DNA of 64,000 nucleotides from Fusobacterium ulcerans ATCC 49185 (lineage in GTDB: Bacteria > Fusobacteriota > Fusobacteriia > Fusobacteriales > Fusobacteriaceae), in the NCBI RefSeq assembly GCF_900683735.1, contig NZ_LR215979.1, positions 496,001 to 560,000 of the forward strand, written 5' to 3'. Each line of letters starts with the position of its first letter. The first letter of the stretch is position 1. The notes under the pieces were generated by a model. It was not told where the DNA came from. It searched no databases and saw only the letters and a list, made by a program, of their open reading frames with translations. Positions 46,752-47,807 of this stretch are shown piece by piece. Position numbers and translations under genes: made by a program.

Positions 46752-47807
46752 ATGAAAATATTAATAACTGGAGCAACTGGGTTTATAGGAAGAAATTTAA
46801 TTCCTATATTAGAAAAAGAAGCAGAAATAGAAAGAATATTAATTCTGATAAGGGATAGAAAAAAAGTTGAAGGTCTTTATTCGGAAAAAGTAGATGTTTG
46901 TACTATAGAAGAGGGATATGAAGAAGTTATTCGAAAATTTTTACCTGATAAAGTTATTCATTTAGCTTCTTTTTTAACAAGTAGAAATGATAGTGAAGTT
47001 ATAGACAAAATACTGGATGCAAATATAAAATTTGGAACTTTATTGTTAAATACTTTGAGAGGATGTCAAATTAAAGAGTTTATAAATTTTGGATCTTTTG
47101 CTGAGTACAGATTAGGAAATGGATTAGATAGTGCTTATTTATATACAGCTACTAAAACAGCTTTTCGAAGTATATTAAAATATTATTCTCAAATAGAAAA
47201 TTTTAAATATTATAATGTAATTCCATATACAATTTATGGTGGAAAAGATACACAAAAAAAGGTAATTGATTATATAAAAGAAAGTTTTGAAAGAGAAGTA
47301 GACATGTCTTATGGAGAGCAAATATTAGATTTTATTCATATAGATGATGTATGTGATTTTATAAAAATATTATTATTTCATGAAAAAGAAATACCAAATG
47401 AACAAGAATTTTATTTGGGAACAGGAAAGGGAACAAATATAAGAGAATTAAGTAAAATATTAGAAAAAATATATACTAAAAAAGCAAATATTAAATGGGG
47501 AAAAATTCCATATAGAGAAAGAGATATAATGTATGCAGTTGCTCCCTTGGGAAATAATATTGAGTATTTAAATTGGAAGGCTAAATTGAAATTAGAAGAT
47601 CAATTGGCAGAGCAGAGCAGAGCAGAGCAGAGCAGAGCAGAGCAGAGCAGAGCAGAGCAGAGCAGAGCAGAGCAGAGCAGAGCAGAGCAGAGCAGAGCAG
47701 AGCAGAGCAGAGCAGTAAATCCTAGCATATTTAAGTCAATTAATAAAGATAAAATTAATTTTTTAATCAAAGAAATACCTTTAAATAGTTTAGAGGTGTT
47801 TATATGA
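46752..47807 (+). CDS. NAD-dependent epimerase/reductase with phase-variable repeat tail
   Basis: An extended short-chain dehydrogenase. Residues 1-290 are a complete Rossmann enzyme: [30 protein letters not shown], catalytic YTATK near residue 136, and [15 protein letters not shown]. From residue 286 the protein becomes seven repeats of AEQSR encoded by the 5-bp repeat at 47607-47715, then 28 unrelated residues to a stop that overlaps the next start in ATGA. In the two other repeat registers it would stop 1-3 codons after the repeat. By context it may be the C4 reductase of the dideoxy sugar (AscF-like); not proven. Confidence 0.88.
47607..47715 (+). repeat. Pentanucleotide tandem repeat (AGCAG)21
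   Basis: Twenty-one perfect copies of AGCAG (47611-47715) preceded by a partial GCAG. The unit of 5 is not a multiple of 3, so a gain or loss of one unit shifts the frame. Perfect identity over 105 bases points to recent slippage. It lies inside the SDR gene, near its 3' end. Confidence 0.97.

Follow-up and report, generated by a model that had tools for sequence, protein, structure and literature searches.

What would a slipping repeat switch if the gene that carries it kept its catalytic part at every copy number? The question is raised by an array of AGCAG units in a 64,000-nucleotide stretch of the genome of Fusobacterium ulcerans ATCC 49185 (contig NZ_LR215979.1, positions 496,001 to 560,000; hereafter the window, whose own numbering is used for all coordinates). 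The array lies at the 3′ end of SDR1, a gene for an extended short-chain dehydrogenase/reductase (SDR), and a second SDR gene, SDR2, begins where SDR1 ends. Phase variation is usually viewed as on/off switching of the repeat-bearing gene. At this locus, we consider it likely that the slipped-strand repeat instead switches translational coupling from SDR1 to SDR2 and is not an off-switch of SDR1 itself. The features on which this reading depends are as follows.

46752-47807, + strand: SDR1, extended SDR of 351 aa, probable CDP-4-keto-3,6-dideoxyhexose 4-ketoreductase (Pfam Epimerase, 1e-25)
47607-47715, + strand: (AGCAG)21.8 array at the 3′ end of SDR1, stop-free and encoding an AEQSR pentapeptide cycle in all three frames
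47716-47804, + strand: tail after the array, 29 codons, open in the present register alone
47773-47801, + strand: 13-bp hairpin (arms 47773-47785 and 47789-47801, −11.5 kcal/mol) containing the SDR2 Shine-Dalgarno sequence
47790-47798, + strand: SDR2 Shine-Dalgarno sequence UUAGAGGUG, 5 nt before the ATG, with a computed unpaired probability of 0.009
47804-47807, + strand: ATGA, the SDR2 start overlapping the SDR1 stop
47804-48694, + strand: SDR2, probable CDP-paratose synthase (RfbS/Prt-like 4-ketoreductase; Pfam Epimerase, 2.9e-40)

Over its 109 nt, the array reads GCAG and then AGCAG 21 times without a mismatch (21.8 copies, 100% match, Tandem Repeats Finder score 218), which bears out the 21 perfect 5-bp repeats reported in an initial annotation of this DNA, and it is the one place in the whole 3.84-Mb genome where (AGCAG)4 occurs. 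Its length is far beyond chance given the ~29% G+C of the sequence. Perfect 5-nt units in a run of sufficient length for slippage, a unit length that is not a multiple of three and a position inside a reading frame are the sequence properties of a slipped-strand locus. Because AGCAG is free of stops and encodes the identical five-residue cycle in three frames, copy number alters only the sequence after the array. As sequenced, the frame continues through the tail to a TGA (47805-47807) that overlaps the SDR2 ATG at 47804, a stop-to-start distance of −4 nt; the overlap had been recognized in the initial annotation, which put the extension at 28 codons when it is in fact 29. The early stops that it placed about 80 bases before the next gene are likewise present: with one unit added the first stop is TAA at 47716-47718, 85 nt before the SDR2 start, and with two units added it is TAG at 47723-47725, 78 nt before that start. 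Fusion of SDR1 to SDR2 by slippage was rejected, because the SDR2 frame has a TAG at 47723.

Comparison with SDR1 homologues bears on what is lost in the shorter registers. Hereafter G000 is the genome of the window, and G002, G010, G020, G026, G028 and G063 are relatives among the Fusobacteriota genomes compared. The catalytic core of SDR1 (46752-47603), in which GxxGxxG and YxxxK motifs are visible, precedes the array and the tail. A 52% identical SDR1 relative of 297 aa in G002 terminates ~13 residues beyond the array start point, and the other homologues end near that point, the one in G026 slightly before it. Thus, every G000 register should keep the SDR1 catalytic core, in agreement with the earlier proposal that the catalytic fold is complete before the repeat.

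The start region of SDR2 appears poorly accessible on its own. Among 112 starts with a strong Shine-Dalgarno sequence in the examined loci, none had a lower unpaired probability than SDR2, and the G028 orthologue alone matched it; when the upstream tail was shuffled 500 times, accessibility this low came up once. A buried or a weak site is a known route to dependence on translation of the upstream gene, and coupling through unfolding of the RNA around a buried site is accepted as a mechanism (PMC12548453); in E. coli, coupling by reinitiation falls by 80-100% at a distance of +38 nt (PMC10666635). With a footprint of only ~15 nt beyond its stop, a ribosome halted at 47718 or 47725 should fall short of the hairpin, which begins at 47773. 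We found no promoter near the array, promoter-like sites in the junction region being no commoner than in shuffles, and no terminator-like site at 46700-48000, where the tail hairpin is without a U-run.

These features suggest the following mechanism. Slippage would shift the register of the array while the SDR1 catalytic core is kept at any copy number, since all AGCAG frames encode the same stop-free cycle. At a copy number that is a multiple of three (21 in G000, 15 in G028), the ribosome would translate through the tail, melt the hairpin over the SDR2 Shine-Dalgarno sequence and terminate at the ATGA, and SDR2 would be translated (ON). After gain or loss of one unit, the ribosome would halt 85 or 78 nt short, the hairpin would stay closed and SDR2 would be poorly translated (OFF). 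SDR1 and SDR2 would draw on one pool of CDP-4-keto-3,6-dideoxyhexose, leading to the L-ascarylose or abequose type via SDR1 and to paratose via SDR2. The switch may thus bring in or take away a second 4-ketoreductase for an intermediate that SDR1 also uses, and with two probable 4-ketoreductases on one pool, switching would change or add a dideoxyhexose of the surface polysaccharide. The effect of register on SDR2 translation, the specificities of the enzymes and the surface phenotype are offered here as predictions.

The junction in related genomes

We searched 98 Fusobacteriota genomes, one per species, for repeats of this kind, and found (AGCAG)4 in G000, G028 and G063 only. G028, a second species, carries the same SDR1 gene with 15 AGCAG units as compared with 21 in G000, in the same register, so that copy number differs between related genomes, as is characteristic of a phase-variable locus. 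Its 88-nt tail is identical to that of G000 and the array flanks are ~98-99% identical. Synonymous divergence (dS) between the two genomes was 0.05 for SDR1 and 0.02 for SDR2, compared with 0.17-0.30 for the rfb genes, which indicates that the SDR1-SDR2 segment was probably shared recently between them, yet the array differs by six units. In the stretch compared, nucleotide-level sharing was limited to the block from rfbH to an oxidoreductase gene downstream of SDR2 (L069:7349-14283, corresponding to 43008-49972 of the window), and because the genes flanking this block differ, it looks like an exchanged cassette.

A third species, G020, has an SDR1 33% identical to that of G000 and, directly downstream, an SDR2 that is 69% identical. 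At the 3′ end of its SDR1, starting ~12 residues earlier in the alignment, is an array of perfect 4-nt units, (GACA)23, and (ACAG)10 occurs nowhere else in the 98 genomes. The stop-to-start gaps by register are 70, −4 and 78 nt in G020 and −4, 85 and 78 nt in G000; hence in both genomes the ON register places the two genes in the close overlap typical of a coupled pair, with 70-85 nt between them otherwise. One extra unit would extend the G020 frame by ~26 codons to an ATGA at SDR2, and the remaining registers end 70 and 78 nt before that start; G020 is thus OFF as sequenced, with G000 and G028 ON. The tail frame remained open through to the ATGA in 3% (G000) and 7% (G020) of dinucleotide shuffles. 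The Shine-Dalgarno sequence of the G020 SDR2 is weak (28 of 185 starts were as weak or weaker); the downstream ribosome-binding site is therefore either buried, as computed for G000 and G028, or weak, as is expected for a coupled pair.

The distribution of arrays follows gene order. An array was present in each of the three genomes with adjacent SDR1 and SDR2 and in none of the seven that have SDR1 but lack an adjacent SDR2, a split with a probability of 1/120 if the three are independent and 1/36 if two lineages are counted. No array was found at the SDR2 junction of G010, which has SDR2 without SDR1. The suggestion in the initial annotation that slippage both alters the C-terminus and gates coupling to the next gene thus gains in-silico support from the G020 geometry with its unrelated (GACA) array, from the buried SDR2 site, from the 21 versus 15 units and from the restriction of arrays to places where SDR2 follows SDR1. 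The tail peptides of G000 and G020 aligned no better than shuffles (p = 0.75), and the idea of a conserved tail peptide was rejected because the two are unlike.

Alternative explanations

One alternative is that the array acts on SDR1 alone: the enzyme would end in either a short repeat tail or a 29-residue extension, the choice setting its activity, its stability or its binding of partners, and SDR2 would be unaffected. C-terminal phase variation has a precedent in Helicobacter canadensis, where one of the genes concerned is rfbB-like and has its poly-G tract at the 3′ end (PMC2823697), and the Shine-Dalgarno sequence of the G000 SDR2 is strong. However, this sequence is buried, the unlike tails of G000 and G020 show no conserved peptide, and arrays occur only where SDR2 follows SDR1; we therefore regard an effect confined to SDR1 as improbable.

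We give somewhat less credence still to the view that the array is a neutral microsatellite tolerated at a gene end, with the registers and the hairpin coincidental. The array does begin where the reading frames of relatives end, and hence would cost SDR1 little, and the ATGAAA start of SDR2 makes the ATGA overlap automatic once the frame stays open. Such neutrality is difficult to reconcile with the finding that two lineages carry unrelated arrays at this junction, neither unit forming another array in the respective genome, with a joint open-tail probability of ~0.002 estimated from the shuffles, or with the buried SDR2 site. Transcriptional attenuation in the style of Streptococcus gallolyticus pil1, in which register decides whether ribosomes prevent a terminator, shares the repeat unit and the ribosome-position logic (PMC3894217) but was rejected as very unlikely, since the junction has no terminator-like site, its hairpin has no U-run, and the array lies inside an operon, in the terminal part of the gene for a 351-aa enzyme, and not in a short leader peptide behind a promoter.

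Several points nevertheless weigh against switching of SDR1-SDR2 coupling, the reading that we favour. Folding was computed on isolated RNA, and a longer fold that included the array was not more stable than shuffles (z = +0.5). Spontaneous opening of the hairpin could let SDR2 be translated alone from its good Shine-Dalgarno sequence. AlphaFold modelled SDR1 with low confidence (mean pLDDT 52), too low to inform on the completeness of the fold. Judged from the sequences, the independent junctions number just two, because G000 and G028 share theirs by descent or recent exchange, and slippage of the repeat within a strain is a prediction from a comparison of one genome per species. In addition, a Wzx/MATE-type flippase gene beside the operon is broken into pieces of 139, 119 and 89 aa (50661-51987), an apparent pseudogene, which makes surface export, and with it the phenotype, uncertain in this isolate.

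The surrounding operon

SDR1 and SDR2 belong to an operon in the order rfbH-rfbF-rfbG, 3,5-epimerase, SDR1, SDR2, oxidoreductase. Its other genes are listed below.

43000-44331, + strand: rfbH (NCBIfam NF011936, 731 bits, cut-off 423)
44344-45117, + strand: rfbF, glucose-1-phosphate cytidylyltransferase (TIGR02623, 410 bits, cut-off 300)
45102-46205, + strand: rfbG, CDP-glucose 4,6-dehydratase (TIGR02622, 490 bits, cut-off 278)
46180-46749, + strand: sugar 3,5-epimerase of RmlC fold, probable AscE role (TIGR01221, 180 bits; PF00908)
48704-49978, + strand: FAD-dependent amine-oxidase-like oxidoreductase, also downstream of SDR2 in G028 and G020

By homology, this is an operon of the CDP-3,6-dideoxyhexose pathway, the rfbF, rfbG and rfbH homologues all scoring far above the curated NCBIfam cut-offs. 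SDR1 homologues in relatives are placed after rfbG or after the 3,5-epimerase gene, and SDR1 here may be an ascarylose- or abequose-type enzyme. The gene downstream of the array was originally taken for an epimerase, an assignment that is probably wrong: the SDR2 orthologue in G010 (60% identity) sits between rfbG and a gene matching CDP-tyvelose 2-epimerase (9rl0, E 2e-155; 1orr, E 2e-132), which is the position of CDP-paratose synthase, and SDR2 is thus probably a 4-ketoreductase of that type. With this assignment, the array would separate two probable 4-ketoreductases that share one substrate.

The oxidoreductase of G000 is 10 residues shorter than that of G028, and between its gene and the broken flippase gene are ~680 bp (49979-50660) in which no open reading frame reaches 80 aa. 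Upstream of the operon, at 40287-41714, RmlC-like and RmlD-like domains are apparently fused in a 475-aa protein, and a similar fusion seems to be present in G020.

Comparison with known systems

The initial annotation was right that pentanucleotide contingency repeats are known elsewhere, and the AGCAG unit, for which it named no example in Fusobacteria, is itself established: slippage of its rotations has been proven in S. suis modS (PMC8125046) and S. gallolyticus pil1 (PMC3894217). In modS, which has GAGCA(n) at ~17-28 copies (PMC6265453, PMC8125046), the array differs from the one described here in lying at the 5′ end, where it gives plain ON/OFF switching of its own methyltransferase gene. 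In pil1/pil3 (GCAGA, PMC3894217), as proposed here, the position of the stopped ribosome with respect to a hairpin controlling the next gene depends on register, but there the reading frame is that of a short leader peptide and the hairpin is a transcription terminator, in place of the 3′ end of an enzyme gene and a hairpin over a Shine-Dalgarno sequence.

AGCAG arrays also occurred in many bacterial phyla among the matches listed, so that any novelty does not lie in the unit. Among these matches, 38 of 79 arrays from many phyla, that of G063 included, were preceded by an exact TTGACA at a distance of no more than 60 nt (control 1.6%; L077-L156), and 36 of the 38 start 29-35 bp after it, that is, near the probable transcription start. 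Many of the listed Lachnospiraceae arrays have a near-identical leader, a terminator-like inverted repeat and then putative secreted proteins. In G063, from another family of the same order, a perfect TTGACA-17-TATAAT promoter precedes (AGCAG)20 (L070:9274-9375, reverse-complement strand) by 5 nt. Beyond the array come a hairpin that resembles a terminator, with its T-run, and then the gene for a PAS/histidine sensor kinase, a layout much like that of the S. gallolyticus pil1 attenuator. In Streptococcus danieliae (L112, minus strand, 1252-1324 of the reverse complement), an AGCAG array lies between frames of 166 and 483 aa that are mutually out of frame; the 483-aa frame has a DPPY methyltransferase motif and resembles a modS-type gene caught OFF.

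A partial literature search found no description of a repeat gating translational coupling to a buried start, and it returned nothing on repeat-driven phase variation in Fusobacterium, which does not prove absence. What appears to be new is thus the gating of coupling to a buried start by a repeat, at the same junction in two lineages. It is possible, although we stop short of calling it probable, that this is a new type of contingency locus, in which a 3′-end repeat spares its own gene, reversibly gates coupling to a buried start and toggles two competing dideoxyhexose reductases, changing sugar identity within a clone in a serogroup-like manner, and which originated twice at this junction, each time from a different, unrelated repeat. 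Surveys of 5′ ends or promoters would miss such a design, and if it is real, 3′-end repeats, often dismissed as harmless, can be ON/OFF switches of the next gene.

The closest parallel in placement is the C-terminal phase variation of H. canadensis, in which 3′-end repeats, one of them in a NAD-dependent epimerase/dehydratase gene, in several cases offer two immediate stops and one longer frame; those repeats are poly-G tracts, and altered C-termini or gene fusion, not control of coupling, were proposed (PMC2823697). The present reading, if true, offers a testable interpretation of these unexplained tracts. Coupling by termination-reinitiation at ATGA or by RNA unfolding (PMC12548453, PMC10666635) shares with the SDR1-SDR2 junction the ATGA overlap and the buried or weak downstream site, but involves no repeat switching in the systems compared. 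The CDP-dideoxyhexose O-antigen loci of Salmonella and Yersinia (abe, prt, tyv and ascarylose genes; PMC3715488) share the rfbF/G/H pathway, and there too the final genes set the sugar. In those loci the final genes vary between strains, whereas here a single operon holds two 4-ketoreductase-like genes separated by a repeat, an arrangement that, if it works as proposed, would allow a one-step reversible change of surface dideoxyhexose, the class of sugars that defines Salmonella and Yersinia serogroups.
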